From Haematobia irritans (taxonomy: Eukaryota; Arthropoda; Insecta; Diptera; Muscidae), in contig NC_134400.1 in the NCBI RefSeq assembly GCF_050003625.1, positions 226,526,085 through 226,590,084 on the forward strand: a stretch of 64,000 bases of DNA, read 5' to 3'. Shown here piece after piece: positions 4,961-61,312 of this stretch. Below the pieces are notes generated by a model that saw nothing but the letters and a program-made list of their open reading frames with translations, was not told where the DNA came from and searched no databases. The position numbers and the translations under genes are program-made. Positions within the stretch are counted from its first letter, which is position 1. The number at the start of each line of letters is the position of its first letter.

Positions 4961-5139
4961 TACTATGCATTGGTGGTTTTATATCGTCGAAAAATTTATC
5001 CATAAGAGATAACCGCTAATAATTCTAAAGTCGTATAAAAATACCAATATATTCTGAAGTAATGGACATAAGATATTAAAATACAATAATAAAAACATCT
5101 AAGGGGCACCAAAATAAGATTCTTAAATAAATTCAAAAA

Positions 5140-5690
5140 TCTCGTGCACAGTATTTGAGATATAGTGTCATCAGATATCGGCTATATATAGCCCCGATAT
5201 TAAATCGCCTATACCTAAGGAACTATTAGAGAGGAATTGACCAGACAAAATGCCAGTGGTAGATATTGGCCTGCACCAAAAACCAAAATTACAAAATCAA
5301 AATGTTCGTGTAGGGTATTTGAGATATAGCGTCACTGATATCGGCTATATAGCCCCGATATTGGATCTTTTATATCTAAGATACCATTTGAGAGGAATTG
5401 ACCAGACTAAATGCAAATAATAGATATTGGTTACTACAAAAAATTAAAAAGTAAAAAGTCTCATGTACAGTTTTTGAGCTATATTATCGCAAGATATCGG
5501 CTATATGTAGCCCTGATATTGGATATCGTATATCTAAGAAACCATTTGAGAGGAATTGACAAGACCAAATGCAAGTAATAGATATTGGTTACTACAAAAA
5601 ATCAAAATTAAAAAATAAAAAGCCTCATGTACAGTTTTTGAGCTATATTATCGCCAGATATCGGCTACATATAGCCCAACACCATTGAAT
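5140..5690 (+). repeat. Tandem repeat, about 156-164 bp period, four units
   Basis: The landmark GATATCGGCTA recurs at 5174, 5337, 5493 and 5657, giving spacings of 163, 156 and 164. Units also share AGAGGAATTGAC and TAGATATTGG. Divergence between units suggests an old array. There is no coding potential. Confidence 0.85.
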
Positions 5691-14340: not shown

Positions 14341-14799
14341 ATTCTAAGTTGATAAAAATCCACTGCTTTCTTTTGCCTGCCTAATACCGAAGTGGTCTTG
14401 TTTCTTTATATCCAAATATGCGTTTTTTGTGTGGTGTTTGTTAACATTAGTTTACACTGAAAATATACATTTGATGACTTTTCTTATGTATTTTGATCTG
14501 CTGAATTCGAAAATGAAGGTTAAAAAAATTTTCATGAAACCGTTTTTGAGATATCCCGTTATTTTTAGTTTTTCTGACGTTTTTCGCTAAACAAATTATA
14601 TCTCGAGCTAGAAATGTCCGATTATATCGTTGTTTGTACCTGAAAGCAAGGTATTGAGATGTCGAACAATAATAAGATCTGTGATAAGTTAAGTGGTTCC
14701 AAATATATCGATGAAAACAGGGCGAATTTTCAAAACAATCTTGATTTACAATTACATTTTCATGTATCGGATAAAAATAATGCCCTTGGAATAAAATCG

Positions 14800-15420
14800 A
14801 GAGATCGGTCTATACGTGGGCTATACCAACACAATGATTCACCTCATTTCCGTTACATCTATTTGTGATCTTAAAATAATTCTAGATTTTAAATTTAGGC
14901 AAAACGGATAGAAAGTACGTTTTCTAGAAGCCCAAAAAATAAAATCGGAAGATCGGTATATACAGGGGCTATACCAACACATGAACCTATAACCATCATT
15001 TTCTTCACAACTATTTGTGTATTTGAAGTTTAAGGCAAATCGGATAGTCTATATGGGGCTATATAAATACATGGACCGATAGACTCCATTTTTGGTACTC
15101 CTATTAGCAGTCCTAAAATACTTCTAGATTTCCAATTTCAGGGAAATCGGAGAGAAACGATGGTTCCTAGAAGCTCAAGAAGTAAAATTAGGAGATCGGT
15201 CTATATGGGGGCTATTCCAAAACATGGACCCATACATACCATTTTTAGCACACCTACTTTTGGTCCTAATATACCTTTAGATTTCAACTTTCAGCCAAAT
15301 CGGATAAAAAATACAGTTTCAAGAAGCCCAAGAAGTAAAATCGGGAGATCGGTCTATATGGGGGGCTATACCAAAACGTCATCAATCAATCCCATTTTAT
15401 CATTAAATAGTCCTGACATA
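14800..15420 (+). repeat. Tandem repeat, about 150-bp units (AGATCGGTCTATA family)
   Basis: The landmark GATCGGTCTATA or GATCGGTATATA occurs at 14803, 14951, 15194 and 15347, with a partial unit near 15045; clean spacings are 148 and 153. Units share AGAAGCCCAAGAAGTAAAAT. A single degraded unit near 32290-33100 belongs to the same family. Short ORFs across the array are by-products of the repeat. Confidence 0.8.
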
Positions 15421-15492
15421 ATTATAATGTCGTGACCGACATATAGCACCGACCACTGTGCACTGTGATATCACAATGGACTGATTTGGCTA

Positions 15493-19012: not shown

Positions 19013-20062
19013 TAAATTTTGCAAAAGCTCTGCACTAAACAAAAAATGATTTGTTATGCACAGAAAAAAAAGTGTCTCGTAAATTTAAGAAGATTTTTAC
19101 AATAATTTATTACAAGAATTTTCCAGAATTTTAGTTCATTTTTCGTATCTTCAACGAAAATTAACTTCTCGAAAGGAAATTTTACAAATTCTAAGTAGCA
19201 ATCGTTTAGTTCATGGCCTACAAAATACGATGGAAATTTCGTTAAAAAATTTCTTAACTGGTAGTTAAAAATTCGTTTGTCATGCTATAAAACTACTTGT
19301 GAAATGTAAAGTATTTTCTAAATAATAAGTGCAATTTACTATAAGATTTTTTTGTATGAGAAAATATTTTTTTACGAAAAATGAACTTGAAAGTGGATAG
19401 CAATTTCTTACTGACAATTCCTTAGTTAATATTTGTTGGTAAAAAATTACCCAATGAAATATTTTTAGTTCACATGTAATTAAATTTATAGACATTTTCG
19501 TCAAAAATGGTTGATAACATTTCATGAAAACTTTGCAAATTTTAAGTTAAACGTTTCATCGTTCATAAACTGGTGTGCCTTTACGAATATTATTCTTAGA
19601 GTAAATTGTCAGCAGATGCGAGATCTTTATCGGCATAGTGGAATGTGATTAATGTAAAGATGATGTTACTTGAGTTTTGTTGTGTATACATGAGCGTGGG
19701 GTTGTTTTTATTTTTGTTCATTTAGTGGTTTGTGTATGTGTGTGTTTGTTATTCGCGGATGGTTTATTTGGCTGGATGAGGTGTTGTTTTCAATAAAGGC
19801 ACATGTGTTTTTGTTGTTGTAGGAATGTTTTGGCTTTGCTTGGTTTTGTTCGGCATGCTTCAGTTGTATAGTTGGCGTTGGCGTGGGCTGTTGCATCTTT
19901 TAAGTAGGTATGCAACAAGGGAGACAAATATTGGTGTTTGTTTATTAAACCTTTTAAATGAAAGTTATTAATATTTTATCGGTAGTTTAGAAAAAAGTTA
20001 TTAAGAATATTTAGGAAAATATGTTAAAATTGAAAGTGTATTGAAATTTTTATTATTCTATG

Positions 20063-20071
20063 TAAAAAATT
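20063..20071. repeat. Target-site duplication of FB1, left
   Basis: TAAAAAATT directly precedes the element and is repeated perfectly at 28228-28236. The uninterrupted paralog near 35933-35950 shows a single copy of the equivalent region. Confidence 0.9.
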
Positions 20072-20325
20072 ATGTAAGGGAAAATAAATCCGTATATGAA
20101 AATTCGTTTCAGCGCCACCTATATGTAAAAAAATGAGTTATATACGAATAAATTTTTTTTTTTGCGATATAATCCTCCGTAGAAATTGGCACAAATTGGC
20201 CAAACGGGAAGAGATAGAAAAGCCAAATTTTAACCAAAGATAAACTGAAACGATAGCTTTCGATTGGAATTCAAACCTTTTGCCAGAAATCTTCCGAATC
20301 GGAGTAATGTTGCATATACGAAACA

Positions 20326-22660
20326 GAGAGAAAAGTGACCACTGTGGCCAAATGGAAAAAGATGGGGTTCCAGATTTATATGTGAAAGATAGATCTTTTA
20401 GTGCTCTATCCGATGGTAAAAACGGATACAGCTAAATGTGTTTGGGAGTCTCAATATATGGCTTGGAAAAAAGTGGACACACTGCTCCCGGAGAGAAAAG
20501 TGACCACTGTGGCCAAAGGGAAAAAGATGGGGTTCCAGATTTACATGTGAAAGATAGATATTTTAGTGCTCTATCCGATGGTAAAAACGGATATTGCGAA
20601 ATGTGTTTGGGAGTCTCAATATATGGCTTGGAAAAAAGTGGACGCACTTCACCTCAAGAGAAAAGTGACCACTGTGGCCAAATGGAAAAAGATGGGGTTC
20701 CAGATTTATATGTGAAAGATAGATATTTTAGTGCTCTATCCGATGGTAAAAACGGATACAGCTAAATGTGTTTGGGAGTCTCAATATATGGCTTGGAAAA
20801 AAGTGGACGCACTGCTCCCGGAGAGAAAAGTGACCACTGTGGCCAAATGGAAAAAGATGGGGTTCCAGATTTATATGTGAAAGGTAGATCTTTTAGTGCT
20901 CTATCCGATGGTAAAAACGGATACAGCTAAATGTGTTTGGGAGTCTCAATATATGGCTTGGAAAAAAGTGGACGCACTTCACCTCAAGAGAAAAGTGACC
21001 ACTGTGGCCAAATGGAAAAAGATGGGGTTCCAGATTTATATGTGAAAGATAGATATTTTAGTGCTCTATCCGATGGTAAAAACGGATACAGCTAAATGTG
21101 TTTGGGAGTCTCAATATATGGCTTGGAAAAAAGTGGACGCACTGCTCCCGGAGAGAAAAGTGACCACTGTGGCCAAATGGAAAAAGATGGGGTTCCAGAT
21201 TTATATGTGAAAGGTAGATCTTTTAGTGCTCTATCCGATGGTAAAAACGGATATTGCGAAATGTGTTTGGGAGTCTCAATATATGGCTTGGAAAAAAGTG
21301 GACGCACTTCACCTCAAGAGAAAAGTGACCACTGTGGCCAAATGGAAAAAGATGGGGTTCCAGATTTATATGTGAAAGATAGATCTTTTAGTGCTCTATC
21401 CGATGGTAAAAACGGATACAGCTAAATGTGTTTGGGAGTCTCAATATATGGCTTGGAAAAAAGTGGACGCACTGCTCCTGGAGAGAAAAGTGACAACTGT
21501 GGCCAAATGGAAAAAGATGGGGTTCCAGATTTATATGTGAAATATAGATATTTTAGTGCTCTATCCGATGGTAAAAACGGATACAGCTAAATGTGTTTGG
21601 GAGTCTCAATATATGGCTTGGAAAAAAGTGGACGCACTTCACCTCAAGAGAAAAGTGACCACTGTGGCCAAATGGAAAAAGATGGGGTTCCAGATTTATA
21701 TGTGAAAGATAGATATTTTAGTGCTCTATCCGATGGTAAAAACGGATATTGCGAAATGTGTTTGGGAGTCTCAATATATGGCTTGGAAAAAAGTGGACGC
21801 ACTTCACCTCAAGAGAAAAGTGACCACTGTGGCCAAATGGAAAAAGATGGGGTTCCAGATTTATGTGTGAAAGATAGATCTTTTAGTGCTCTATCCGATG
21901 GTAAAAACGGATACAGCTAAATGTGTTTGGGAGTCTCAATATATGGCTTGGAAAAAAGTGGACGCACTGCTCCCGGAGAGAAAAGTGACCACTGTGGCCA
22001 AATGGAAAAAGATGGGGTTCCAGATTTATATGTGAAAGATAGATATTTTAGTGCTCTATCCGATGGTAAAAACGGATACAGCTAAATGTGTTTGGGAGTC
22101 TCAATATATGGCTTGGAAAAAAGTGGACGCACTTCACCTCAAGAGAAAAGTGACCACTGTGGCCAAATGGAAAAAGATGGGGTTCCAGATTTATATGTGA
22201 AAGATAGATATTTTAATGCTCTATCCGATGGTAAAAACGGATACAGCTAAATGTGTTTGGGAGTCTCAATATATGGCTTGGAAAAAAGTGGACGCACTTC
22301 ACCTCAAGAGAAAAGTGACCACTGTGGCCAAATGGAAAAACATGGGGTTCCAGATTTATATGTGAAAGATAGATCTTTTAGTGCTCTATCCGATGGTAAA
22401 AACGGATACAGCTAAATGTGTTTGGGAGTCTCAATATATGGCTTGGAAAAAAGTGGACGCACTGCTCCTGGAGAGAAAAGTGACCACTGTGGCCAAATGG
22501 AAAAAGATGGGGTTCCAGATTTATATGTGAAAGATAGATATTTTAGTGCTCTATCCGATGGTAAAAACGGATATTGCGAAATGTGTTTGGGAGTCTCAAT
22601 ATATGGGTTGGAAAAAAAATGGGGGCACTGCTCATAGAGAAAAATAGAAAAGATGGGGTT
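20326..22660 (+). repeat. FB1 left array, 14 units of 165 bp
   Basis: The landmark GTGCTCTATC recurs at exactly 165-bp steps from 20401 to 22546. Units come in two types, one with GCTCCCGGAGAG and one with TTCACCTCAAGAG, which mostly alternate and so form a 330-bp higher-order repeat. Because 165 is 55 codons, reading frames persist through the array. They are broken mainly by the CAGCTAAATG variant, while TGCGAAATG units read through. The resulting 55-residue repeat ORFs on both strands are a consequence of this period and I do not call them genes. The innermost unit is degraded. Confidence 0.95.
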
Positions 22661-24204
22661 CCATTCACAGAAATATCACTAAAATATTTTAAATTGAAAA
22701 CGCAATCATTTAAAAAATTAACTTTTTAGTAAAATTCAAAAATATTGTAAACAAAATGAGTGAATGTTTTTTAACACTTTAATTCAATAAACAAAATTTT
22801 TCTCGGAAATAAACATACATATACTCAAAAAAAGATTACTTGGATCCAAAGATTTTGACCTTCCCTTAAGTATTTTGTTATTGATTTCGAGCCAAAGATG
22901 CGGTTTCTTTAAACTAAAGAAATCTCATTTATCAAATTTTTCATTTTCTTTTCGTGGTTTATTAATAATAGTACTCATGTACAAACAAATGCCAGTTAAA
23001 AAATCCAAATTGTAAATCCAAAAACTTTAAACCAAAGACGTTAAATCCTCAAAATAAGTCTTAGCCTATATTTGAAGCGTTTTTACCTTAAACCTAAAGT
23101 TTCAATATTTCAGTTAATTTAAGGACAATATCTTCAAATAAAAAAATCGTTTCTTTACATTAAGGGAAATTTGCATTAGTTCAAAGACATGCGACTTCAA
23201 CGGAGGGACGCAAATTTACAAAATTTGTGTCCTAAATTTAATGAAAAAAATTTTGAAGCAAATATTATAAACTTTTAATTAAAATTTCATTATTTTAAAG
23301 AAATTTGTCCTTAATATTTTGTAAATTTCGTATCCTAAAATTTAGGTTGCGTAACCTTTAATATCACGTAAATATTTTTTTCATTGTACTACACATTTTT
23401 TAATAAAACTTTGACGTAAATCTAAAGGAAAGTCAAACTATAATTAAAATCGCAAATATTTTTTTCAGCGTACTACATATTTTTTAATAAAATTTTGACG
23501 CAAAGAAAAGTCAAACTATAATTAAAATCGCAAATTTATGAAAAATTTAAACTTTTGTAAGATTATAAGAATATTAATTCATCTAACCGACAATTAATTA
23601 TAAATAAATTAAAATTGGAACAAAAAACAAATAATTTCCTCAATTAAAAACTTAAAACTTAACGTATCTGCCACGTAAAGCGAGGTCTAGAATGTTTCGA
23701 CCAAAATCAGTAAAATTTTTAATTCAAATAGAATATTAATTAACAAGTTACGAAGAAATCAAGTAATTCAAATAATTTGTGTTTTTATACCTTTCGCCAT
23801 TACTTCGTTATTCCGGTTTTAACACATCGAAATATTGGTTTCAGACCCTATAAAGTCTATATATTCTAGGTCGTCGTGAAATGTGCGGTCGATCTACCTA
23901 TCTCCGTATGGTGAAATCACACTAACTTCTGAACAAAACAAGTTATCGACTTGGAACTTGGCGTAAGTAGTTGTTATTCATGTAGGCCGGATGGTATTGC
24001 AAATGGGCCATATAGGTATAGCCCTTATATAAACCGATCCCCAGATTTGATTTCCGCAGCCTTGTGAAACACCAAATTTCAGATACGGTTAAAATTTAGT
24101 ACGTGAAATTAGTGTGCGGTCTCCAACCATCATGAACAAATTAGTCCATATCAGTTCAGTATCATATCATAATTATATATAGCCCCCATATAAACCGTTA
24201 TTCA
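22661..24204. repeat. FB1 central spacer (captured or older repeat DNA)
   Basis: Part of this single-copy middle resembles other families. Positions about 22820-23393 run from TACTCAAAAAAAGATTAC to TTTTTTTCATTGTA and match the repeat at 4528 in reverse. Positions 23385-23535 hold an imperfect 80-bp tandem duplication. Positions 23790-24204 match the dispersed family also seen at 60090-60250 (shared TATAAACCGATCCCCAGATT). There is no ORF of interest. Confidence 0.6.
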
Positions 24205-27200
24205 AAGCCATATATTGTGACTCCCAAACACATTTCGCAATATCCGTTTTTACCATCGGATAGAGCACTAAAAGATCTATCTTTCACATATAAATCTGGA
24301 ACCCCATCTTTTTCCATTTGGCCACAGTGGTCACTTTTCTCTTGAGGTGAAGTGCGTCCACTTTTTTCCAAGCCATATATTGAGACTCCCAAACACATTT
24401 CGCAATATCCGTTTTTACCATCGGATAGAGCACTAAAATATCTATCTTTCACATATAAATCTGGAACCCCATCTTTTTCCATTTGGCCACAGTGGTCACT
24501 TTTCTCTCCAGGAGCAGTGCGTCCACTTTTTTCCAAGCCATATATTGAGACTCCCAAACACATTTAGCTGTATCCGTTTTTACCATCGGATAGAGCACTA
24601 AAAGATCTATCTTTCACATATAAATCTGGAACCCCATCTTTTTCCATTTGGCCACAGTGGTCACTTTTCTCTTGAGGTGAAGTGCGTCCACTTTTTTCCA
24701 AGCCATATATTGAGACTCCCAAACACATTTAGCTGTATCCGTTTTTACCATCGGATAGAGCACTAAAAGATCTACCTTTCGCATATAAATCTGGAACCCC
24801 ATCTTTTTCCATTTGGCCACAGTGGTCACTTTTCTCTCCGGGAGCAGTGCGTCCACTTTTTTCCAAGCCATATATTGAGACTCCCAAACACATTTAGCTG
24901 TATCCGTTTTTACCATCGGATAGAGCACTAAAAGATCTATCTTTCACATATAAATCTGGAACCCCATCTTTTTCCATTTGGCCACAGTGGTCACTTTTCT
25001 CTTGAGGTGAAGTGCGTCCACTTTTTTCCAAGCCATATATTGAGACTCCCAAACACATTTAGCTGTATCCGTTTTTACCATCGGATAGAGCACTAAAAGA
25101 TCTACCTTTCACATATAAATCTGGAACCCCATCTTTTTCCATTTGGCCACAGTGGTCACTTTTCTCTCCGGGAGCAGTGCGTCCACTTTTTTCCAAGCCA
25201 TATATTGAGACTCCCAAACACATTTAGCTGTATCCGTTTTTACCATCGGATAGAGCACTAAAAGATCTATCTTTCACATATAAATCTGGAACCCCATCTT
25301 TTTCCATTTGGCCACAGTGGTCACTTTTCTCTCCGGGAGCAGTGCGTCCACTTTTTTCCAAGCCATATATTGAGACTCCCAAACACATTTAGCTGTATCC
25401 GTTTTTACCATCGGATAGAGCACTAAAATATCTATCTTTCACATATAAATCTGGAACCCCATCTTTTTCCATTTGGCCACAGTGGTCACTTTTCTCTTGA
25501 GGTGAAGTGCGTCCACTTTTTTCCAAGCCATATATTGAGACTCCCAAACACATTTAGCTGTATCCGTTTTTACCATCGGATAGAGCACTAAAAGATCTAT
25601 CTTTCACATATAAATCTGGAACCCCATCTTTTTCCATTTGGCCACAGTGGTCACTTTTCTCTTGAGGTGAAGTGCGTCCACTTTTTTCCAAGCCATATAT
25701 TGAGACTCCCAAACACATTTAGCTGTATCCGTTTTTACCATCGGATAGAGCATTAAAATATCTATCTTTCACATATAAATCTGGAACCCCATCTTTTTCC
25801 ATTTGGCCACAGTGGTCACTTTTCTCTTGAGGTGAAGTGCGTCCACTTTTTTCCAAGCCATATTTTGAGACTCCCAAACACATTTAGCTGTATCCGTTTT
25901 TACCATCGGATAGAGCACTAAAATATCTATCTTTCACATATAAATCTGGAACCCCATCTTTTTCCATTTGGCCACAGTGGTCACTTTTCTCTTGAGGTGA
26001 AGTGCGTCCACTTTTTTCCAAGCCATATATTGAGACTCCCAAACACATTTCGCAATATCCGTTTTTACCATCGGATAGAGCACTAAAATATCTATCTTTC
26101 ACATATAAATCTGGAACCCCATCTTTTTCCATTTGGCCACAGTGGTCACTTTTCTCTCCAGGAGCAGTGCGTCCACTTTTTTCCAAGCCATATATTGAGA
26201 CTCCCAAACACATTTAGCTGTATCCGTTTTTACCATCGGATAGAGCACTAAAAGATCTATCTTTCACATATAAATCTGGAACCCCATCTTTTTCCATTTG
26301 GCCACAGTGGTCACTTTTCTCTTGAGGTGAAGTGCGTCCACTTTTTTCCAAGCCATATATTGAGACTCCCAAACACGTTTAGCTGTATCCGTTTTTACCA
26401 TCGGATAGAGCACTAAAAGATCTACCTTTCGCATATAAATCTGGAACCCCATCTTTTTCCATTTGGCCACAGTGGTCACTTTTCTCTCCGGGAGCAGTGC
26501 GTCCACTTTTTTCCAAGCCATATATTGAGACTCCCAAACACATTTAGCTGTATCCGTTTTTACCATCGGATAGAGCACTAAAAGATCTATCTTTCACATA
26601 TAAATCTGGAACCCCATCTTTTTCCATTTGGCCACAGTGGTCACTTTTCTCTTGAGGTGAAGTGCGTCCACTTTTTTCCAAGCCATATATTGAGACTCCC
26701 AAACACATTTAGCTGTATCCGTTTTTACCATCGGATAGAGCACTAAAAGATCTACCTTTCACATATAAATCTGGAACCCCATCTTTTTCCATTTGGCCAC
26801 AGTGGTCACTTTTCTCTTGAGGTGAAGTGCTTCCACTTTTTTCCAAGCCATATATTGAGACTCCCAAACACATTTCGCAATATCCTTTTTTACCATCGGA
26901 TAGAGCACTAAAAGATCTATCATTCACATATAAATCTGGAACCCCATCTTTTTCCATTTGGCCACAGTGGTCACTTTTCTCTCCAGGAGCAGTGCGTCCA
27001 CTTTTTTCCAAGCCATATATTGAGACTCCCAAACACATTTAGCTGTATCCGTTTTTACCATCGGATAGAGCACTAAAAGATCTATCTTTCACATATAAAT
27101 CTGGAACCCCATCTTTTTCCATTTGGCCACAGTGGTCACTTTTCTCTTGAGGTGAAGTGCGTCCACTTTTTTCCAAGCCATATATTGAGACTCCCAAACA

Positions 27201-27970
27201 CATTTAGCTGTATCCGTTTTTACCATCGGATAGAGCACTAAAGTATCTATATTTCACATATAAATCTGGAACCCCATCTTTTTCCATTTGGCCACAGTGG
27301 TCACTTTTCTCTTGAGGTGAAGTGCTTCCACTTTTTTCCAAGCCATATATTGAGACTCCCAAACACATTTAGCTGTATCCGTTTTTACCATCGGATAGAG
27401 CACTAAAAGATCTACCTTTCACATATAAATCTGGAACCCCATCTTTTTCCATTTGGCCACAGTGGTCACTTTTCTCTCCGGGAGCAGTGCGTCCACTTTT
27501 TTCCAAGCCATATATTGAGACTCCCAAACACATTTAGCTGTATCCGTTTTTACCATCGGATAGAGCACTAAAATATCTATCTTTCACATATAAATCTGGA
27601 ACCCCGTCTTTTTCCATTTGGCCACAGTGGTCACTTTTCTCTTGAGGTGAAGTGCGTCCACTTTTTTCCAAGCCATATATTGAGACTCCCAAACACATTT
27701 CGCAATATCCGTTTTTACCATCGGATAGAGCACTAAAATATCTATCTTTCACATGTAAATCTGGAACCCCATCTTTTTCCCTTTGGCCACAGTGGTCACT
27801 TTTCTCTCCGGGAGCAGTGTGTCCACTTTTTTCCAAGCCATATATTGAGACTCCCAAACACATTTAGCTGTATCCGTTTTTACCATCGGATAGAGCACTA
27901 AAAGATCTATCTTTCACATATAAATCTGGAACCCCATCTTTTTCCATTTGGCCACAGTGGTCACTTTTCT
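24205..27970 (-). repeat. FB1 right array, 23 inverted units of 165 bp
   Basis: The landmark GATAGAGCAC (reverse complement of the left-array landmark) recurs every 165 bp from 24259 to 27889; the unit at 25744 carries a C-to-T change. Units show the same two variant types as the left array. The extra nine units relative to the left arm show unequal expansion. Confidence 0.95.
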
Positions 27971-28227
27971 CTCTGTTTCGTATATGCAACATTACTCCGA
28001 TTCGGAAGATTTCTGGCAAAAGGTTTTCATTCCAATCGAAAGCTATCGTTTCAGTTTATCTTTGGTTATAATTTGGCTTTTCTATCTCTTCCCGTTTGGC
28101 CAATTTATGCCAATTTCTACGGATGATTATATCGCAAAAAAAAAATTTTATTCGTATATAACTCATTTTTTCACATATAGGTGGCGCTGAAACGAATTTT
28201 CATATACGGATTTATTTTCCCTTACAT

Positions 28228-28236
28228 TAAAAAATT
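28228..28236. repeat. Target-site duplication of FB1, right
   Basis: TAAAAAATT, identical to 20063-20071. Confidence 0.9.
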
Positions 28237-28386
28237 AATATTCAATTCCAGATGAATTTGGAAAATTTTTGTTATATCTCAGCGTATAGTTTATTCATAA
28301 ATTGGTAAGTATTTTTTTAATATGACTTTCTTTTAAAAAGAATATTTTTATGTATATTATTATTTATTATTTTTTTTGGAAACCAG

Positions 28387-28395
28387 TTTAATGTT
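28387..28395. repeat. Target-site duplication of FB2, left
   Basis: TTTAATGTT, repeated perfectly at 30070-30078. The related module at 36482-36490 has a single TTTAATGTT in the same context. Confidence 0.9.
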
Positions 28396-30069
28396 ATGTC
28401 CGTGAAAATAAAGTTAACTTTAAAATTTATGATAACATTGTCTTAACGTTAACAGAGCGTTAACAGTGCTCTGCTAAGTGCTTAACAGAGAAAAAATAAA
28501 GTTAACTTTAAAAAGAACAAATAGTTAAAATAAAAAAAACGATCATTGTGCCAAAACTATAGAAGGGGCAGTATACACCCATATACCAAATTGTAGGGCA
28601 CGATGAGTAGAATCTAAATCCGAAATAATTTCATAAAGTTCATTGCCAGAATTCGAGATATTTTCATTTTTAGTGCCAATTGAGTTAAAGTTAAAAACAA
28701 ATGTGACCACTGTGCCAAAACTATAGAGGGGGCAGTATACACCCATATACCAAATTGTAGGGCACGATGAGTAGAATCTAAATCCGAAATAATTTCATAA
28801 AGTTCATTGCCAGAATTCGAGATATTTTCACTTTAAGTTGCGATTGAGTTAAAGTTAAAAACAAATGTGACCACTGTGCCAAAACTATAGAGGGGGCAGT
28901 ATACACCCATATACCAAATTGTAGGGCACGATGAGTAGAATCTAAATCCGAAATAATTTCATAATGTTCATTGCCAGAATTCGAGATATTTTCAATTTTA
29001 GTGTCAATTGAGTTAAAGTTAAAAACAAATGTGACCACTGTGCCAAAACTATAGAGGGGGCAGTATACACCCATATACCAAATTGTAGGGCACGATGAGT
29101 AGAATCTAAATCCGAAATAATTTCATAAAGTTCATTGCCAGAATTCGAGATATTTTCAATTTTAGTGTCAATTGAGTTAAAGTTAAAAACAAATGTGACC
29201 ACTGTGCCAAAACTATAGAGGGGGCAGTATACACCCATATACCAAATTGTAGGGCACGATGAGTAGAATCTAAATCCGAAATAATTTCATAAAGTTCATT
29301 GCCAGAATTCGAGATATTTTCACTTTAAGTTGCGATTGAGTTAAAGTTAAAAACAAATGTGACCACTGTGCCAAAACTATAGAGGGGGTATATGGGTGTA
29401 TACTGCCCCCTCTATAGTTTTGGCACAGTGGTCACATTTGTTTTTAACGTTAACTCAATCGCAACTTAAAGTGAAAATATCTCGAATTCTGGCAATGAAC
29501 TTTATGAAATTATTTCGGATTTAGATTCTACTCATCGTGCCCTACAATTTGGTATATGGGTGTATACTGCCCCCTCTATAGTTTTGGCACAGTGGTCACA
29601 TTTGTTTTTAACTTTAACTCAATCGCAACTTAAAGTGAAAATATCTCGAATTCTGGCAATGAACTTTATGAAATTATTTCGGATTTAGATTCTACTCATC
29701 GTGCCCTACAATTTGGTATATGGGTGTATACTGCCCCCTCTATAGTTTTGGCACAGTGGTCACATTTGTTTTTAACTTTAACTCAATCGCAACTTAAAGT
29801 GAAAATATCTCGAATTCTGGCAATGAACTTTATGAAATTATTTCGGATTTAGATTCTACTCATCGTGCCCTACAATTTGGTATATGGGTGTATACTGCCC
29901 CCTCTATAGTTTTGGCACAATGATCGTGTTTTTATTTTAACTATTTGTTCTTTTTAAAGTTAACTTTATTTTTTCTCTGTTAAGCACTTAGCAGAGCTCT
30001 GTTAACGCTCTGTTAACGTTAAGACAATGTTATCATAAATTTTAAAGTTAACTTTATTTTCACGGACAT
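28396..30069. mobile_element. Foldback-type transposon FB2, 1674 bp
   Basis: The termini are ATGTCCGTGAAAATAAAG and its reverse complement. About 155 bp of unique arm on each side leads into 164-bp tandem units: six on the left (landmark CCAAAACTAT at 28551, 28715, 28879, 29043, 29207 and 29371) and four inverted on the right (landmark ATAGTTTTGG at 29414, 29578, 29742 and 29906). The arrays meet head-to-head near 29388 with no spacer, so the whole element is one giant palindrome. It has no coding capacity. The 9-bp duplication and design make it a foldback relative of FB1. Confidence 0.92.
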
Positions 30070-30078
30070 TTTAATGTT
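30070..30078. repeat. Target-site duplication of FB2, right
   Basis: TTTAATGTT, identical to 28387-28395. Confidence 0.9.
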
Positions 30079-30419
30079 TTCCTTTGTTGTAAAAACAATA
30101 TTTAATTTCAGAGAAAATACAGATGGATTCGAACAAATTTAAAAAATAGAGAATTGGTAAGTTTTCTTTTAAAAATTGACTTTATTTCAACTAGAATATT
30201 TACGTTTTTGTGACCTTTTTATCATCAAAATTACAGGTTTTTAATACCTTTTCTTTTTTTTTTCTTTAATCAAATTTTTTGGAAACTAATGTAATATTTT
30301 TAATGTAAAAACAAATATTTAATTTCAGAATAAACCCTTAAAAATTTGGATAAATTTTTAGTACTCCTTTGCCTGTAATTTAACAGTGAATTGGTAAGGA
30401 TTCTTTAACTTTCTTTTAA

Positions 30420-30701
30420 CCCTGGACAGTCATCCTTTTTTTTTTGTACATTAACGTCATCTTTCGTCATTTTGACTACGGCTGATTTTAAGACGCTATA
30501 ATTTTCATCGTGAGCGAAAAAGTGAACCAAACTTGAATTTATTTTCTTATTCAATTTGGTTTTAATTAGTATAAAACAAAAATTCATAAAACGGTCGAAT
30601 TAGTATAACTAAAATTTACCATTTCCCAATAGACTAAAATGCATTTTAAATCAAAAATGAAATTACGTGTTGTCATTTTGACGAATGATGACTGTCTAGG
30701 G
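30420..30701. mobile_element. TTAA-target MITE in copy 1, 282 bp
   Basis: The ends CCCTGGACAGTCATC and GATGACTGTCTAGGG are inverted repeats with one mismatch. The flanks are TTAA (30416-30419) and TTAT (30702-30705). Copy 2 has the uninterrupted site TTTTAACCAGAATATTTA near 36815, which confirms the insertion. Fits the piggyBac target preference. No coding sequence. Confidence 0.88.
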
Positions 30702-31799
30702 TTATCAAGAATATTTGGTTTTCTATGCATATTATTATTTTTTTCATTTTTTGAAAACCTATTTAATAATTTTTTTAATGTAAAAAATAAATATTTAATT
30801 TCACAGTAACCCAAATAAATTTGGACAACTTTTTATATTTCCCCTCAGCGTACAATTTAATAGAGAATTGGTAAGTTTTATATTAAAACTTTGTCTTTCT
30901 TTCAACTAGAATGTTCATTTTATTATATCCTTCACATCGATAACAACACAGTTTTATGAGTTTATTTAGAATACTTCATTATTTCTCTAATTGTTTCAGG
31001 TACAAAATTTATGAGATACGTTTTCCAAAGAAAAGTTGAATTCCTTACACCATTTGATAAAAACTAAAAATTATATTTCATTACATGGTGTTAATTTTTA
31101 ACAATTTTCATTATTGTTTCCATTTTTTTCCAGAAAGATATGTGAAAAAATTACCTACGATGACTAAAAAAAGGATAAGTCAAAATGTCCAAACAGCGGG
31201 TTCAAATGAACTACTCTCTGTTCCACGTGGTCATAATTTTTATTCACAAAAAACATTGTATTAAGAACTTTCATCATAAGTTTTTATAATAAAGTAGTTT
31301 TGCTTAAAGAAAGTTTCATTTTAATGTATGAAAAATTTCATAATAGTAAAACGGTTTGTTGTTCCTTTAATTATTTAATTTCTCTGTACTGTGGAATGAT
31401 TGATTTAAAAATAGTTTAGTCGTCGACATTTTAAAGAGACTGTTAACCAATTTTAATTATCGGGTTTCCCACAAAATAAGCAAGTAAAACAAAATAATAC
31501 TGATTTTTTAACTTGGTAGGGGTATATAAATCTTATGGTGTTGTAAAAATGAACTAAACTACAATGTTATAGATGAACTAAAATTTAAGAGAATTATAAA
31601 CTAGACAAGTTGAAAAAAATCTTAAGGGCTAAATCATGGTCAATATTATTACAGTTTAGTTCATTTTGCAATGGAAAAGGGTTCACTGTTTTTTCAGTGT
31701 GATTTAAAGCGAAAAATCGGATTTTTTTTATAAAAATTTAGAATTGAAGTAAAGCCAACCTTGATTCGCCATACATTCTTAAGACTTTTACTTTTAGAA

Positions 31800-33780: not shown

Positions 33781-34765
33781 CATTGAGTACAGGTGCGTAG
33801 CGTGATTCCCATTAAACAACAGGAAAGGGGAGATAAATTGTTCTGTAGTGCTTATGTAGGCCCATTATATAGATCAATTAAGATTTTAATTGATTCATTT
33901 AAAAAAACAAGTGAGTAAAGTAGAAAGTCGGGCGGGGCCCTAAACCACCCCTACTGAATTAGTAAACATAAGCATTTGTGGGGTATCATTGGTATAGGTT
34001 TTGGAGAACATAAAGGGGGTACATGTTTATGGGAGTCTTGTCACAATCTGAACAGAAATGTCTGCTATTACGTATATAGTTTATTTTGCACCAAAAGAGT
34101 TAGTATGCCACTAATATTGAGTCCATTATTAAAAAAAGAGGAAATCGTCAATTAGTTTGTGGGTAATAAATCCAAATTTGTAAAAATCGGGCAATATTAT
34201 TATGTATGTTAAGAGCTACATGTAAGTCTAAATACGATCAGCTAACATAGTACATCAAAATTTGAAATTTGAATAACATAGGTTAATATTATTGCCAAAT
34301 ATAACAAAATGAGCGATATATGGGACCTATATCTAAATCTGAACCAATTTGTATAATATTTTGCAGGTATGATTGATACCACAGAAGGTTACCTTTTGTA
34401 AAATTTGAGTACGATCAGTTACTAAATGAGGCCCCTATGGTCAAAAATAAGGTTATTAGGGGCAAATTTTTCAAAATCGGGCGATACATATATATGGGAG
34501 CTATATCTAAATTTGAACCGATTACGATGAAAATTTGCACATACAGTTAGTGCTATAGAAGATTACATTTAGCCGACATTGGTTACGATCGGTCTATAAA
34601 TAAGGTGTTTACTAGATAGGGTCACGAAAAAAAGTTGATGCGGTCACCCCCCAGTTTTGTAGCATATACGAAGACAATTTGCAACGTGCTCTCAAATTGT
34701 TCTAGCAAAACCACATGCACTTTGCATAACGCAGAAAATGCCGTAGTGCAAACAAGGAGTATGTA

Positions 34766-37700
34766 CACAGAAAAAAAAGTGTCTCGTAAATTTAAGAAGA
34801 TTTTTACAATAATTTATTGCAAGAATTTTCCAGAATTTTAGTTCATTTTTCGTATCTTCAACGAAAATTAACTACTCGAATGGAAATTTTACAAATTCTA
34901 AGTAGCAATCGTTTAGTTCATGGCCTACAAAATACGATGGAAATTTCTTTAAAAAATTTCTTAACTGGTAGTTAAAAATTCGTTTGTCATGCTATAAAAC
35001 TACTTGTGAAATGTAAAGTTTTTCCTAAATAATAAGTGCAATTTACCATAAGATTTTTTTGTATGAGAAAATATTTTTTTACGAAAAATGAACTTGAAAG
35101 TGGATAGCAATTTCTTACTGACAATTCCTATAGTTAATAATGGTTGGTAAAAAATTTCCCAATGAAATATTTTTAGTTCACATGTAATTAAATTTATAGA
35201 CATTTTCGTCAAAAATGGGTAGATATCATTTCATGAAGTTTTTGCTAATTTTAAGTTAAACGTTTCATCGTTCTTATACTGAATATGCATTTAAGAGTAT
35301 TGTTTTTAGAGTAAATTGTGGACAGATGCGATGAACTAATGCATAGTACAGAGATCTTTCTCGTCAAAGTGGAATATGTTTAATGTAAAGATGATGTTAC
35401 TTGAAATTTTTTTGAGAGTGAGAGCATGCAATGCAATAATGAGAAATGGTAGCGAGTGATGGGGATGTTGTGTATATCTGAGCGTGGGGTTGTTTTTGTT
35501 CTTTCAGTGGTTTGTGTGTGTGTGTTTATTATTCGCGAATGGTTTATTTGTCTGGATGAGGTGTTGTTTTCAATGAAGGCACATGTGTTTTTGTTGTTGT
35601 AGGAATGTTTTGGTTTTGCTTGGTTTTGTTTGGCATGCTTCAGTTGTATAGTTGGCGTTGGCGTGGGCTGTTGCATCTTTTTAGCAAGTATGTAACAAGG
35701 GAATATAAAGGTATGGAATATTTTGGTTTTTTTTAGACATATATTGGTGTTTGTTTATTAAAACTTTGAAATGAAAGTTATTAATATTTTAGCGATGAGA
35801 TGTACGATGGCGAAGTGATGATCGGTAGCTTAGATAAAAGTTATTAAGAATGTTCAATATTTAGGTAAAAATGCTGAAATGGAAAGTATATTGAAATTGT
35901 TTTATCTAATTTAATTTTTATTACTCAATGTAAACAATAAATATTCAATTTCACAGTAACTCCAGATGAATTTGGACAATTGTTTGTTACACCTCAGCTT
36001 ATAGTTTAATGGTAAATAGGTAAGAGTTCTTTTTCAATGTGTTTTTTTTTTTTTTTAAATAATATTCTTTATGTATATTATTATTTGCTAATTATTATTA
36101 TTATTATTTTTTTTAACAAGTTTCATGTTTTTCTTTGTTGTAAAAAAATATCTAAGTTAAGAGCAACCCCAGATGGATTTGGGCAAATTTTTATATTTCT
36201 CCTCAGCGTATAATTTAATAGAGAAGTGGTAAGCTTTCTTCTCACTAGAATATTTACGTTTTAATAACATTTTTATTGTCAAAAATTACAGGTTTTTAAT
36301 ACCTTATTTTAGTATTACTTTAATCAAATATTTTTGGAAAATTTTTGTTACACCTCAGCATATAGTTTAATCATAAATTGGTAAGTATTCTTTTTAAAAT
36401 GTGGTTTTCTTTTAAAAAGGATATTTTTTATTTATATCATTATTTGCTAATTATTATTATTATTATTTTTTTTGAAAGTAGTTTAATGTTTTTCTTTGTT
36501 GTAAAAAAATATTTAATTTCAGAGCAACCCCAGGATGGATTCGGGCATATTTTTATATTCCTCCTCAGCGTATAATTTAATAGAGAAGTGGTAAGTTTTC
36601 CTTTAAAATTTGGCTTTCTTTTCACTAGAATATTTAAATTTGTATGACCTTTTTATTATCAAAATTACATGTTTTTAATACCTTATTTTAGTATTACATT
36701 AATCAAATATTTTTGGAAACCAATTTAATATTTTTATTGTAAAAACAAATATTTAATTTCAGAATAACAATTTGGAAACATTTTTTTGAATTGGTAAGCT
36801 TTCTTTAACATTCTTTTAACCAGAATATTTAGTTTTTTTATACATATTATTTCTTTAATTAGATTTTTTGGAAACCAATGTAATGTTTTCTATTTAATTA
36901 AAAAAAATATATATAATTTCAGATTATCCCCAAATGTATTTCGATAACTTTTTAACCTCAGCGTACAATTTAATAGAGAATTGGTAAGTTTTATATTAAA
37001 ACTTTGGCTTTCTTTTGACAAGAATATTTATTGTATTATGTCCTTCACATCGATAACAACACAGTTTTATGAGTTAATATATTACTTAATTCATTATTTC
37101 TCTAATTGTTTCAGGTACAAACTTTACGTTTATCTAAGAAAAGTTGAATTCCTTACACCATTTAATAAAATGCCCCCAAATATGGTAAGTTACAAGCTAA
37201 TTTAAAGAGATTAAAAATTATATGTTATTACATGTTAATTTTTAACAATTTTCATTATTCCTTCCATTTTTTTCAGCAAGATATGTGAACATACTAACGA
37301 TGAATAAAAAACTAAGGAAAAGTCAAAAAGTCCAAATAGCGAGTTAAAATAAACTACTTTCTTGTTCCACGTGGTCATAATTTTTATTCACAAAAACATT
37401 GTATTAATAACTTTCATCATAAGTTTTTATAATAAAGTACTTTTGCTTAAAGAAAGTTTAATTTTAATGTATGAAAATGTTCATAATAGTAAAACGGTTT
37501 GTTGTTCCTTTAATTATTTAATTTCTCTGTACTGTGGAATGATTGATTTAAAAATAGTTTAGTCGTCGACATTTTAAAGAGACTGTTAATCAATTTTTAT
37601 TATCGGGTTTCCCAAAAAATAAGCAAGTAAACCAAAGTAATACTGACTTTTTAACTTGGTATGGGTATATAAATCTTATGGCGTTGTAAAAATGAACTAA

Positions 37701-37842
37701 AATACAATGTTATAGATGAACTAACATTTAAGAGAATTATAAACTATACAAGTTGAAAAAAATCTTAAGGGCTAAATCATGGTCAATATTACTACAGTTT
37801 AGTTCATTTTGCAATGGAAAAGGGTTCACTGTTTTTTCAGTG
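34766..37842 (+). mobile_element. CACAGAAAA-end element, copy 2, 3077 bp, uninterrupted
   Basis: It starts CACAGAAAAAAAAGTGTCTC, ends TTTTTTCAGTG, and has TA on both sides (34764-34765 and 37843-37844). It is collinear with copy 1 and serves as the empty-site reference for FB1, FB2 and the 30420 MITE. It carries a series of exon-like modules (see 35957-37436). A minus-strand ORF beginning MQQPTPTPTIQLKHA is kept in both copies (19708-19896 and 35380-35676). That could be simple sequence conservation. Confidence 0.85.
35957..37436 (+). other. Reiterated exon-like modules with splice signals
   Basis: Modules bounded by AG and GTAAG: 35957-36019, 36162-36228 (weak acceptor), a partial one ending at 36380, 36523-36590, 36763-36793, 36923-36983 and 37115-37184, then a last acceptor at 37276 and an AATAAA at 37431. 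The repeated modules share (C)AGATG(G/A)AT...CCTCAGCGTA(T/C)AATTTAATAGAGAA. Joining 36923-36983, 37115-37184 and 37277 onward gives a 43-codon ORF from the ATG at 36934 to TGA. Joining one repeated module to the next creates TG|A stops, so they would work only as alternatives or are decayed. No protein family recognised. Confidence 0.5.
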
Positions 37843-39305
37843 TATACAAAGGTACCGTTAGAAATTTACAGATAAACAGGTTTTGTGTTCTAAATGCCTT
37901 ATAAATCAATTTCGTAGATATGAATAACGATGTGCATGTGGTTTCGATCGGACATCATGACAACACAGCAAAAACTATTTAGTGTTGTGTAGGGTGACCT
38001 ATTGACTTTTTAAAATCTCTATAACTTTTTTGTTTATGAATATAAGTAAATACTTCAAAAGCAAAAGTTTCATATTTTGTTAAGATCTTTAAATGGTTAT
38101 TAGAAATGGGTGTCATAGGGGTATACGAAGCGAAATAAAAAAATTAAAAATCAAATTTGACGTTGGAGTCAAAAATGACCAATGCACGAAATATAGCCCC
38201 TGATCAACCACGAACAACGATATGCGTTTCTTTTCGATCGGACTTCAAATGACGACACAGCACAATAAATTGTATTTCGGGGGGTCGTGTGGTGCACGGA
38301 AAAAAAAGTTTTGGTGTTCTGAAATTGTCTTCGAATGTGCTACAAAACTGGGGGGTGACCACATCAACTTTTTTTTTCCTTTAGGCCGTGACCCTATCTA
38401 GTGTTTACGGCCAAATTTGACCAAATCGGGCGATACATATATATGGGAGCTATATCTAAATCTGAACCGATTTCGATGAAATTTCGCACAGTAAGTAATT
38501 GCTACAGAAGATTACATTTAGCAAACTTTGAGTACGATCGGTTTATAAATAAGGGGTTTACGGCCAAATTTGACAAAATCGGGCGATACATATATATGGA
38601 AGTTATATCTAAATCTGAACCGATTTCGATGAAATTGCGCATATACGGTAAGAGGCATAGAAGATTATATTTAACCAACTTTGAGTACTATCGGTTGATA
38701 AATAAGGGTTTTACGGCCAAATTTGGCAAAATCGGGCGATACATATATATGGGAGCTATACCTAAATCTGAACCGATTTGGATTATTTTTAGCACATATT
38801 GTCAGTACCATAAAAGATTAGAGTAAGCCACGTTTGAGAATGATCGCTTAATAAATAAGGTTTTTATTGCCAAATTTGGGAAAATCGTGCGATACATATA
38901 TATGGGAGCTATATCTAAATCTGAACCGATTTCAATAAAATTTTACAGACTTAAAGGGTGATGAAAAAGTTTACTATGTGCAAAATTTGATGACGATCGG
39001 TTTGTGATGACGGTCGGTTTGTCGAAATCGGGCGATACATATATATGGGAGCTATATCTAAATTTGATCCGATTTCTTCCAAATTCAATAGCGTTCGTCC
39101 TTGTGCCCAAAAAACCGGAATCCTGTGAACAACAAATACATGGACAAACAGACGGACGGACGGACACCATGCGCTGGATCGACTCAGGAGGTGATTCTGA
39201 GTCGATCGGTATATATTTTATGGGGTCAAAAATCAATATTTCTGGTAGGCACATTTTTTGGCCGATCAAACTTATTATACCCTGACCACTATGTGATTTA
39301 GGGTA

Positions 39306-41849: not shown

Positions 41850-43540
41850 AACAAGTAAGGAAATTCTAAAGTCGGGCGGGCCGACTATATTATACCCTGC
41901 ACCACTTTGTAAATCTACGTTTTCGATACTATCTCAAATCCGTCAAGTGTGTTGGGTGCTATATATATATATAAAGGTTTTTGTCCCAAATACATACATT
42001 TAAATCTGACTCCATCTGAACAAAATTTATAATCTATAAACATAAAATTTAAGTCGACTAATGCCCTGGGATGGTACACTATGGTAGTAAAAAAATATGG
42101 GAAACATTTTAATCTGAACCAATTTTGAGGCAACTTCGCAAAAGTGTATTTATGATTTATCGGTCGATAGATATGTATTAGAAATAAAATAAGCAGTGGC
42201 GATTTTATAATGAAAATGTGGGTATTTTGGTCATTTTTGCCCAAGTCGGAAAAGCATATATATGGAAGCTATATAGAAATCTGAACCGATTTCAACCAAA
42301 TTTGACGTGCATACTTAGTATTATAATTCTACTCCCTGTGCAAAATTTCACGTAAATCGGACTACAACTTTTAACTCTGTGGTCATATGACGGAAAATCG
42401 GGCGAAAGATATATTTATTTATTTATTTCGTCTATATGGGAGCTATATCTAAATCTGAACCGATTTCAATAAACACTTGACTACACTACTAATTGTATTC
42501 CAAGTGCAAAATTTCAACCAAATTGGGGTAAAACTCTGGCTTCTGGGGCCATATAAGTCTATATCGGACGAAAGAATATGAAAGCTATATCTCAATCTGA
42601 ACCGATTTCAATCAAATTTGGCACACCTGACAATAGTACTTATTGTTCTCCTCGTGCAAAATTTCAAGCAAATCAGGATAAAACTCCGGCTTCTGGGTCC
42701 ATATAAGTGCATATCGGGCGAAAGATGTATATGGGAGCTATATCTAAATCTGAACCGATTTCTTCCAAAATCAATAGGGTTCTATTCTGACCCAAACTTA
42801 AACTGGGACCTAGACTTTGATCACAAAAATGTGGTCACAGACAGACGGACAGACGGACATGGCTAGATCGACCCTGGGATAGAGGTGTGCACGTGACACG
42901 AAATTGTCGTGACCCACGAAAATTTTGGTGACTCACGCGTGAGTCACGCTCATGGCAACGGCGTGAGTGTGCATGAGCGTGATTAACAAACCAAAATGTC
43001 GTGGGTGAGCGTGAGTCACGAAAATATTACCTTCGTGAGTGTGCGTGAGTAAAGATTTACGCTCACGAAAACAACCCCTCCCACCAACATAAAACGCTTA
43101 AGAGTTAAATTCATTTACAATTTTAGTGACACCTGGGATGCTAAGAGTGTAATAACGCTCTCGATTTTAAAAATGCTCATATTTTCAGACACGTCGCTAA
43201 GGTAAATTACTCAAAAAATTGTTCGTGAGTCATGACATTTTTCGTGAGTCACGGTATTTTCGTGAGTCACGACATTTTCGTGCGTGAGCGTGCGTGAGTA
43301 CAAATTTTATTTTCGTGAGTGTGCGTGAGTCCTACCAAACAATATCGTGCGAGAGTGTGCGCGAGTAAGATTTTTCCGTCGTGAGTGTGCGTGAGCAAAA
43401 TATTACTCACGTGCTCACCTCTACTCTCGGACCCACCCTTGCCAAAGACACCATGTTTCTATCTCGTCTCCTTCTGGGTGTTGCAAACATATGCACTAAC
43501 TTATAATACCCTGTTCCATAGTGTGGTGCAGGGTATAAAA
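41850..43540 (+). repeat. Dispersed repeat, second plus-strand copy, with hAT-like insert
   Basis: It begins AACAAGTAAGGAAATTCTAA then GTCGGGCGGGCCGAC and contains TATACCCTGCACCAC near the start and the inverse GTGGTGCAGGGTATA near the end. Internal units carry GGGAGCTATATCTAAATCTG and end with a GACGGACAGACGGACATGG block. It is interrupted at 42880-43423. It has no protein gene. Confidence 0.75.
42880..43423. mobile_element. hAT-like element rich in CGTGAGT, 544 bp
   Basis: The ends are inverted repeats, TAGAGGTGTGCACGTGA and TAGAGGTGAGCACGTGA. The 8 bases outside (CCCTGGGA and CTCTCGGA) agree at six of eight positions, consistent with an aged 8-bp duplication of the hAT type. Inside, CGTGAGT or its close variants occurs more than a dozen times, mainly in two blocks around 42900-43080 and 43220-43405. 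No ORF. Confidence 0.7.
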
Positions 43541-59459: not shown

Positions 59460-61312
59460 TTTATACCCTCCACCCTAAGATGGTGGTTTTTTAAGTTCAT
59501 CATTCCGTTTGTAACAGATCGAAAAATTGCTCTAAGACCCCATAAAGAATAGGGTGGTTAAATTTTCAAGGGCCGATGTTGATTTTGAATAAAACACAAA
59601 CTATTTAGGACATTATTGTAATTTTATTTTATTATGATATATTCGTATTACTCAATTATGTATGGAACAAACTATAGGCCAAATAGACGCCGCGACCTCG
59701 GTGGCACACCTCCATCCGATGGTCCAAATTTTCGATGACGCTGGGGCATAATTGAGGTTCTATGCCGTTAATGTGCCGAATTATCTCGTCCTTTAGCTAT
59801 TGAATTGTTGCTGGCTTATCGACGTACACCTTTTCTTTCAAATAACCACAAAGAAAAAAGTCCAACGGTGTCAAATCACATGATCTTGGCGGTCAATTGA
59901 CATTGCCATTACGTGAGATAACACGGACATTAAATTTGTTGCGCAAAAGAGCCATTGTTTCGTTAGCTGTGTGGCAAATTCGGGCCATACAAAGTTCGTT
60001 ATCATCTTACGATAGCGAACACCATTCACAGTAACTGCCTGACCGGCCTCATTTTGGAAAAAATACGACCCGATGATGGTCGGTCCGTCTGTTGAAATCA
60101 CGCCAACTTCCGTTCGAAACAAGCTATCGACTTGAAACTTGGCACAAGAAGTTGTTATTGATATAGGTCGTATCTTATTGGAAAAGGGCCATATCGCATT
60201 ACTTTACGTATAGCCCCCATATAAACCGATCCCCAGATTTGACCTTCGGAGAAATTTTGCACTAGGAGTACAATTGGTAGTATAGTCAAATGTGCCAAAT
60301 TTTATTGAAATCGGTTCAGATTTAGATATAGCTTCCATATATATCTTTCGTACGATATGCACTTATATGGATTCAGTCTGAGTTTTACCCTGATTTGGTT
60401 GAAATTTTGCTCAAACATAACGCTTGGCCATATAGTCACGAGTGCAAAATTTGATTGAAATCGGTTCAAATTTAGATATAACACCCATATATATCTTTCG
60501 TCCGATTTAGACTCATATGACAACAGAGGCCAAAGTTTACTACCGATTTTCGTGAAGTTTTGCACAGAGAGTATAATTAATATTCTAGCAATGCTTGGTA
60601 AATTTGATTGAAGTCGATTCAGATTTAGGTGTCGTTATGTGTGTTAAATTTGGTTAAAATCTTTAATATTTTAGATATTTAAGTGTGTAAAGTTTGATCT
60701 GATTTGGTTCAGATTTAGATAAAACCCCCATATATTCGTGTTTCCAGTTATTACAAATATGACCAAAATTCCCACACTTTAGACAAAACTCTGTGATGAT
60801 TTCCTCATATCTTAGTCATATCCTGTAGTGCCAGAATTTCCACAGAACAGTTGATTTTTAAATTTTCGACTTGACCAAATAATATGTTACAACCCACACT
60901 TGACCACATATCTTGGCGAGATCTACCAATATCCTTTTAAAATCGCCACTGGTGAGTAGCAAAAATTGCAAATATTACTAAAATTTTCCTATATTTGGTA
61001 TACATATGTATCGCCTGATAAATCATAAATGTCCTTTTGTACACTTGCATTAAAATTTCTCTCGCTTCATATTTCCCATATTTTTTACTAACATTGTGTT
61101 TCATCCCATGGTGATAGCCGATTTTAATTCTAGTGTTTTTGTACAAATATTCTCTTCATTATAAGTATTTGTATCTGGAAATGCAAACCTTTGCATAGCT
61201 CCCAGCAAATTTGAAGTAGTTAAGGTGGTAACACAAATGTTGGTATACATAGTGGTGAAGGGTATAATATAGTCGGCCCAGCCCGACTTTAGACTTTACT
61301 TACTTGTTTTTT
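59460..61312 (-). repeat. Dispersed repeat family, reverse copy
   Basis: Read on the minus strand it begins AACAAGTAAGTAAAGTCTAA with GTCGGGC and contains GGGTGTTATATCTAAATTTG-type blocks, ending near a TATACCCTCCACCC at 59463. It matches 33905-39305 and 41850-43540. A degraded mariner lies inside (59552-60085). Confidence 0.7.
59552..60085 (-). pseudogene. DD41D mariner-type transposase relic
   Basis: A GGGTGGTTAAATTTTCAAGG end follows TA at 59550-59551. The minus strand encodes GSYFFQNEAGQAVTVNGVRY, then after a deletion HTANETMALL, and then SCDLTPLDFFLCGYLKEKVY, each matching the intact transposase at 61521-62606. The segment with the second catalytic Asp (WFQQDGAT) is deleted, a stop replaces a Trp before PPRSCD, and the 5' half is gone. 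Confidence 0.85.

Follow-up and report, generated by a model that had tools for sequence, protein, structure and literature searches.

Foldback transposons are DNA transposons with long terminal inverted repeats (TIRs) that contain internal tandem repeats. The FB element of Drosophila melanogaster, a foldback with 9-bp target site duplications (TSDs), has subrepeats of 10–31 bp. Here we describe an element with the same class structure and a period of 165 bp, which sets it apart from the short-subrepeat FB type, at positions 20072-28227 (8156 bp) of a 64,000-bp stretch of the Haematobia irritans genome (contig NC_134400.1, below C4; C4:226526085-226590084), which we call the window. It is a real, recently active fly foldback DNA transposon and belongs to a group of three or more related families with arm repeats of 164–165 bp; its own family is called family 1.

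All comparisons with published elements refer to extracts of the papers cited. Within these, the nearest known system in anatomy is Tetris of Drosophila virilis (TIR-220, with DAIBAM), a foldback with TIR subrepeats of ~220 bp, which shares with the H. irritans element an outer flanking domain, tandem repeats, a variable non-coding middle, the lack of any transposase found, and TSDs of 8–10 bp (PMC4079207). It differs in its period (~220 versus 164–165 bp; the comparison is with the published description, not with the sequence) and in array length, a Tetris arm having three units in one allele and four in the other, whereas arms reach 28 units in family 1 and 38 in family 2. Sister families with a common period are not described for Tetris in the extract of PMC4079207. 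Galileo likewise has long TIRs with direct repeats: in Galileo F of D. mojavensis the TIR subrepeats are ~210 bp long and present in no, two or three copies per TIR (PMC3573991), while Galileo G of D. buzzatii has four direct repeats, the first two of which contain sites at 561-577 and 701-718, and it is for G that the Galileo THAP domain has been shown to bind sites within the TIR direct repeats (PMC3688188). Unlike the elements described here, however, Galileo has a 7-bp TSD and a known transposase sequence, and F does not reach tens of repeats. The original prediction had considered the window element unusual on the ground that fly foldbacks have only short subrepeats, and Tetris and Galileo F refute that ground.

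Two more distant systems belong to the Mutator-like elements (MULEs) or their foldback relatives. Tm1 of Meloidogyne (Mutator/foldback) has composite, variable TIRs, mostly 9-bp TSDs and one group with a MULE-like transposase, but a repeat motif of ~14 bp and asymmetric 7-bp terminal motifs (PMC3169594). Muta1 and other mosquito MULEs have TIRs mostly longer than 100 bp, subterminal tandem repeats, 8–9 bp TSDs and many non-autonomous derivatives, but their tandem repeats measure 9–15 bp and autonomous copies are known (PMC5225508). Within the open-licence literature, what appears new here is a clan with a constant 164–165 bp period over unrelated units, and with a box common to two families. 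The end string was not found in open-licence papers; one of the box strings occurs in 6, whose titles and opening abstract lines deal with human or mammalian subjects. In a single genome, three sister families retain ends, TSD size and period although their units differ, and two of them keep a 12-bp box; they offer a natural comparison for telling indispensable parts from those free to drift, and single out a specific site.

The focal element consists of inverted repeats around a non-coding core (Table 1). Its inverted arms (20072-22617 and 25682-28227, 2546 nt each) are 97% identical, both ends start ATGTAAGGGAAAATAAA, and the 255-bp outer arms carry 7 mismatches between sides. The two arrays face each other with 13.9 units on the left and 22.9 on the right, both of period 165. 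Remeasurement confirmed the predicted layout of two inverted 165-bp arrays, outer arms and a perfect 9-bp duplication; the predicted 37 units (14 + 23) hold as a total that counts partial units, but only 35 are full, the remaining two being cut at ~145 bp. The core spans ~1.55 kb between the arrays, its longest frame of 74 aa has no match in a Pfam search, and its stretch 23903-24050 is similar to a repeat present also at 60084-60242. Within the right array, units R08-R12 and R18-R22 are the same but for one difference. The four outermost units of the left arm differ from those of the right at 2 of 660 positions, and the outer arms (7/255) diverge more than these units do (Fisher p 0.0026). 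The recurring units and the near-identical outermost ones show that exchange or conversion has remodelled the arrays.

For two positions drawn at random from the window, the frequency of a common 9-mer is 7e-5, the chance being nearer 0.002 for an A/T-only 9-bp target such as the focal TSD. Neither chance nor a single misassembly explains the build and the TSD, because both recur at independent places in the genome. Across 1,173,491,510 bases in 181 contigs, the arm query gave at least 39 full-length matches (98–100% identity) among 288 matches listed or counted; it scored the best 39 of 514 candidates, and the counts for family 1 are lower bounds. Pairing of the matches listed yielded at least 26 elements, 13 with both ends (the focal element included) and 13 with one. 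The 21 copies examined comprise the focal element, the remaining 12 elements with both ends and 8 of those with one (those left out being C2:138155634, C2:183387006, C1:203386986, C3:96172493 and C4:72993877). All 21 have two inverted ends with at most 3 mismatches to the 17-bp motif (one, L026, begins ATGTCAGG), and the partner end was recovered in 8/8 copies fetched from a single arm match. An exact 9-bp TSD, different in each copy, flanks 20 of the 21, the last (L018) having 8 bp in a T run. The queried end is shared by construction, whereas partner ends and TSDs are independent. The foldback transposon reading is supported, as is the prediction that other copies would combine ATGTAAGGG ends with different 9-bp duplications, of which the shared end is partly due to the arm query that chose the copies and the duplications are the independent part. 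A or T makes up 154 of 189 TSD letters, versus 66% in the window.

Family 1 copies range from 1970 to 8156 bp and, by anchor count, from 3 to 14 units in the left arm and from 2 to 28 in the right (n = 21). A homologous core is found in 16 of them, often internally deleted, and is absent from five (L010, L013, L014, L017 and L028); the 16 cores contain no open reading frame of 75 aa or more, and the copies examined are geneless. The core query gave at least 54 matches (best 40 of 6696 candidates scored). Diverged partial matches to the core at C4:148475477 (87%), C3:5379856 (86%) and C2:98654007 (92%) may be older relatives, or the sequence from which the core came. The identity of outer arms is 98.8% inside a copy and 98.4% from copy to copy, which indicates that the spread of family 1 was recent; an arm is hardly closer to its own partner than to the arms of other copies.

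The insertion locus belongs to an older duplication (19059-31700 versus 34766-37843, 79–86% identity), which provides empty sites. When the flanks were joined and aligned to the paralog, in alignments that hold other gaps as well, the target was found once and without an element, for the focal element and also for a second one next door (Table 1); both are read as insertions that duplicated 9 bp. Several copies with TSDs, together with these paralogous empty sites, document the mobility of the foldback class. The original prediction missed both the second element and the paralog without insertions. The segmental duplication also contains shorter repeats, and pieces of it resemble small exons flanked by AG and GTAAG.

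The second element (28396-30069) is smaller, built alike, and lies 168 bp downstream of the focal one (150 bp without the two inner duplications). It defines family 2: its ends start ATGTCCGTGAAAATAAA, 14 of 17 letters being as in family 1 (binomial 4e-6 at window composition), and its arrays of 164-bp units, with 5.1 and 3.2 copies, abut without a core. Twenty fetched pairs and the window element make up a sample of 21 copies, with at least three further pairs left. An exact 9-bp TSD was found in 19 of the 21, units follow one another at exactly 164 bp in all copies but L045, L049 and L050, and the longest arm has 38 units.

Family 3 was reached solely via the end motif. The pattern ATGTNNGNGAAAATAAA followed 100–130 bp on by ATAAA has 73+93 = 166 genome matches, versus 3+4 = 7 in the reversed control; the 166 include families 1 and 2, some places are counted twice, and the places read were drawn from the first listed. 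Three loci outside families 1 and 2 were read. One of them, L066 (C3:51143938-), has a different sequence behind the motif and proved to be a foldback: four spacings between its tandem copies measure exactly 164 bp (a fifth copy is just 60% like the reference), its inverted arms are 98% identical and its TSD is TTTTTCATC; it is the one copy of family 3 that was read. Its arm has at least 40 matches (best 40 of 97 candidates) in two groups, of 97–100% and 90–91%. Two family 3 end pairs lie far apart, at C2:218511521-218532113 (20.6 kb) and C5:117658966-117669006 (10 kb), and are candidate autonomous or nested copies. L072 (C1:75981368) is a decayed relative of family 1 with eroded units (70–78%), and L071 was rejected as a fourth family, the 3.5 kb examined showing neither array nor inverted arms.

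Members of the three families lie close together more often than at random. With 46, 44 and 27 places among the matches listed, one per element as far as paired, 4 cross-family pairs fall within 12 kb versus 0.088 expected, and none of 500 random placements gave more than 2; the 4 include the window pair, from which the families were traced. At 100 kb the count is 9 versus 0.76 expected (random maximum 4), and at 1 Mb 12 versus 7.5, a number that random placement reaches (maximum 17). The other close neighbours are C1:71112580/71124172, C3:51143639/51149436 and C1:174183511/174187894.

What families 1 and 2 have in common inside their units is the 12-bp box GTGACCACTGTG. It is exact in 36 of the 37 focal units, with one mismatch in the remaining unit, and occurs exactly 8 times in the second element and nowhere else in the window; its orientation relative to the element end is constant in both families. 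Among the ungapped units of the copies, the exact box is present in 335 of 343 for family 1 and in 228 of 240 for family 2. The box and adjoining letters are the sole significant similarity between the units of the two families (score 32, null maximum 27 in 500), and once it is left out, comparing units in register gives no better agreement than comparing rotated ones (rank 32 of 128). A degenerate unit within the outer arm was considered and dismissed (score 23, shuffles reaching 28). All three families thus have the 164–165 bp period in common, with units that are otherwise unrelated. Neither the box nor the end patterns matched in viral contigs, and the box pattern had no match in bacterial and archaeal genome contigs.

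We read the focal element as a young non-autonomous foldback transposon mobilised by a transposase in trans, with box-bearing arrays serving as extra transposase sites and with two sister families, and we give this reading a probability of about 75%. A transposase encoded elsewhere in the genome would bind the ATGTAAGGGAAAATAAA ends, and the element would be cut out and then inserted by a 9-bp staggered cut, leaving 9-bp duplications at mostly AT-rich sites. Each 165-bp unit would most likely offer one box in fixed orientation as an additional site for the transposase or a transposase partner, and these sites would raise binding to a long-armed substrate. Arrays would lengthen and shorten via unequal exchange, slippage or inter-arm conversion, giving arm lengths that vary within and between copies. 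The two sister families have the end motif and the 9-bp duplication in common with the focal family, and a 164-bp period. That the box is an accessory site is argued by analogy with the Galileo TIR direct repeats. The transposase is probably of the Mutator superfamily, in which TSDs measure 8–10 bp and mostly 9, as the exact duplications of families 1 and 2 do; the same argument from TSD size has been made for Tetris. The elements are best read as non-autonomous and probably Mutator-like foldbacks, with arrays that would increase the number of accessory sites for the transposase. A more tentative idea, to which we give distinctly less credence, is a clan where selection would act on how long the arm subrepeats are (164–165 bp) and not on their sequence: unrelated units would hold to one nucleosome-scale period, such that one accessory site per nucleosome repeat would be shown to the transposase in chromatin.

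Several observations weigh against this account. The empty sites are paralogs (79–86% identical), not alleles, and two of the 21 family 2 copies have no exact TSD (8/9 letters in L048, none in L044). L071 carries the end motif without array or inverted arms in 3.5 kb. In the second element, the box is degenerate in the unit farthest out on either side, and the family 3 unit shows a loose, non-significant match to the box (TTGACCACATTGTG, score 23; 7/300 null scores reach it). The box is only moderately conserved in family 1 arrays (exact 12-mer rank 14 of 165) and not special in family 2 (12-mer rank 76 of 164; 140/164 windows equal or exceed its mean letter conservation). Taken as a sign of selection inside arrays, box conservation is weak in family 1 and absent in family 2, and these ranks leave constraint inside the arrays unproven. 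The genome has 22 MULE-domain matches, of which 15 loci of ~3.2 kb were examined; the studied ends and box are absent from the 15 within ~1.5 kb, nor were the ends seen when two MULE copies were inspected with wider flanks. None of 8 IS1595/Merlin-type matches and none of 9 P-type matches stands at an end among those listed (the lists being incomplete). In the part of their surroundings examined, none of these MULE, IS1595 and P-type matches thus turned out to be an autonomous partner. One MULE (L069/L070, C4:56476331-56480212) has 63-bp TIRs, 92% identical, that begin near GGCTCCATGAAATAAGC and are unlike the studied ends.

The subrepeats might instead be a satellite-like by-product of tandem duplication inside long arms, kept at ~165 bp by nucleosome-scale recombination or chromatin and without a role in transposition. 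This is a possible but clearly less probable explanation. The period is near the common satellite monomer size, arrays span a broad range of sizes (2–28 units per arm in family 1 and up to 38 in family 2), conservation of the box is nothing special in family 2, and Tetris repeats have turned into satellite DNA (PMC4079207); a box in the same orientation as the sole thing found in common between families 1 and 2 is, however, not explained by drift alone. Whatever their role, arrays of satellite size with up to 38 units per arm make these elements candidate seeds of satellite DNA. The box may instead bind a host protein, architectural or silencing, with the arrays serving chromatin, insulation or small-RNA roles and not transposition, which we consider unlikely. 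In its favour, the outer-arm sequence AGGTGGCGCTG (20110-20120 and 28179-28189, in the window confined to the two outer arms) resembles a CTCF-type core, but the box itself matches no motif we can name. At a comparable position, family 3 carries GAGCACCCCCTATATGT.

A foldback of the P superfamily, like Galileo, in place of a Mutator-like one is slightly more doubtful still. Galileo does have long TIRs whose tandem repeats hold transposase sites, and the P-type matches in this genome have open frames up to 977 aa, but Galileo duplications are 7 bp long against 9 bp in 20 of 21 copies here, and none of the 9 P-type matches, as said, stands at an end in the incomplete lists. Those with open frames of 814–977 aa lie at C5:83265973, C2:141004471, C1:89783420, C4:213356736 and C1:136457699. 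Chimeric reads can, as is generally known, create long palindromes, yet an assembly or sequencing fold-back artefact is highly improbable: the arms are unequal (7/255; 14 versus 23 units) around an asymmetric core, the element has TSDs, the build is repeated in 21 copies at different places, and the paralog has no insertion.

Table 1. Features of the two elements and of their paralogous segment (window coordinates).
Feature	Position	Strand	Basis or remark
Left 9-bp TSD TAAAAAATT	20063..20071	.	flank comparison
Left outer arm, family 1, begins ATGTAAGGGAAAATAAA	20072..20326	+	255 bp, 7 mismatches to right arm; found in other copies
Left array, 13 full + 1 partial 165-bp units, box GTGACCACTGTG once each	20327..22617	+	repeat and box positions
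Non-coding core, degenerate unit piece first (to ~22643)	22618..24197	+	homologous core in 16/21 copies
Right array, 22 full + 1 partial 165-bp units	24198..27972	-	repeat and box positions
Right outer arm, family 1	27973..28227	-	match to left arm
Right 9-bp TSD TAAAAAATT	28228..28236	.	flank comparison
Left TSD of second element TTTAATGTT	28387..28395	.	flank comparison
Left outer arm, family 2, begins ATGTCCGTGAAAATAAA	28396..28536	+	141 bp, 1 mismatch to right arm
Family 2 left array, 5.1 x 164 bp	28547..29388	+	repeat period
Family 2 right array, 3.2 x 164 bp, no core before it	29387..29919	-	repeat period
Right outer arm, family 2	29929..30069	-	match to left arm
Right TSD of second element TTTAATGTT	30070..30078	.	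flank comparison
Paralogous flank	19059-20056 vs 34766-35905		81%
Paralogous flank	28257-28395 vs 36333-36490		79%
Paralogous flank	30079-30333 vs 36491-36767		80%
Paralogous flank	30702-31700 vs 36816-37843		86%
Paralogous empty site, focal insertion	35735..36129	+	target once, 7/9 letters, no element
Paralogous empty site, second insertion	36333..36820	+	target TTTAATGTT once, 9/9, no element

Elsewhere in the window, a separate period-164 tandem array (5135-5677, 3.4 copies) has neither the box nor long inverted arms. Dispersed tandem repeats at 14792-15432, 34289-34612, 38403-39076, 42236-42762 and 60290-60735, several with a period of ~150–153 bp, have TATATGGGAGCTATATC-like words in common, and similar dispersed-repeat sequence is found at the end of the focal core. 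An open frame of 364 aa at 61524-62615 (-) encodes a Tc1-like (DD41D, DUF4817) transposase that matches an entry named Haematobia irritans at 98% identity over 99% and one from Musca autumnalis at 98% over 50%. This points to a muscid fly, although a mobile gene says little about the species; the element is possibly young.

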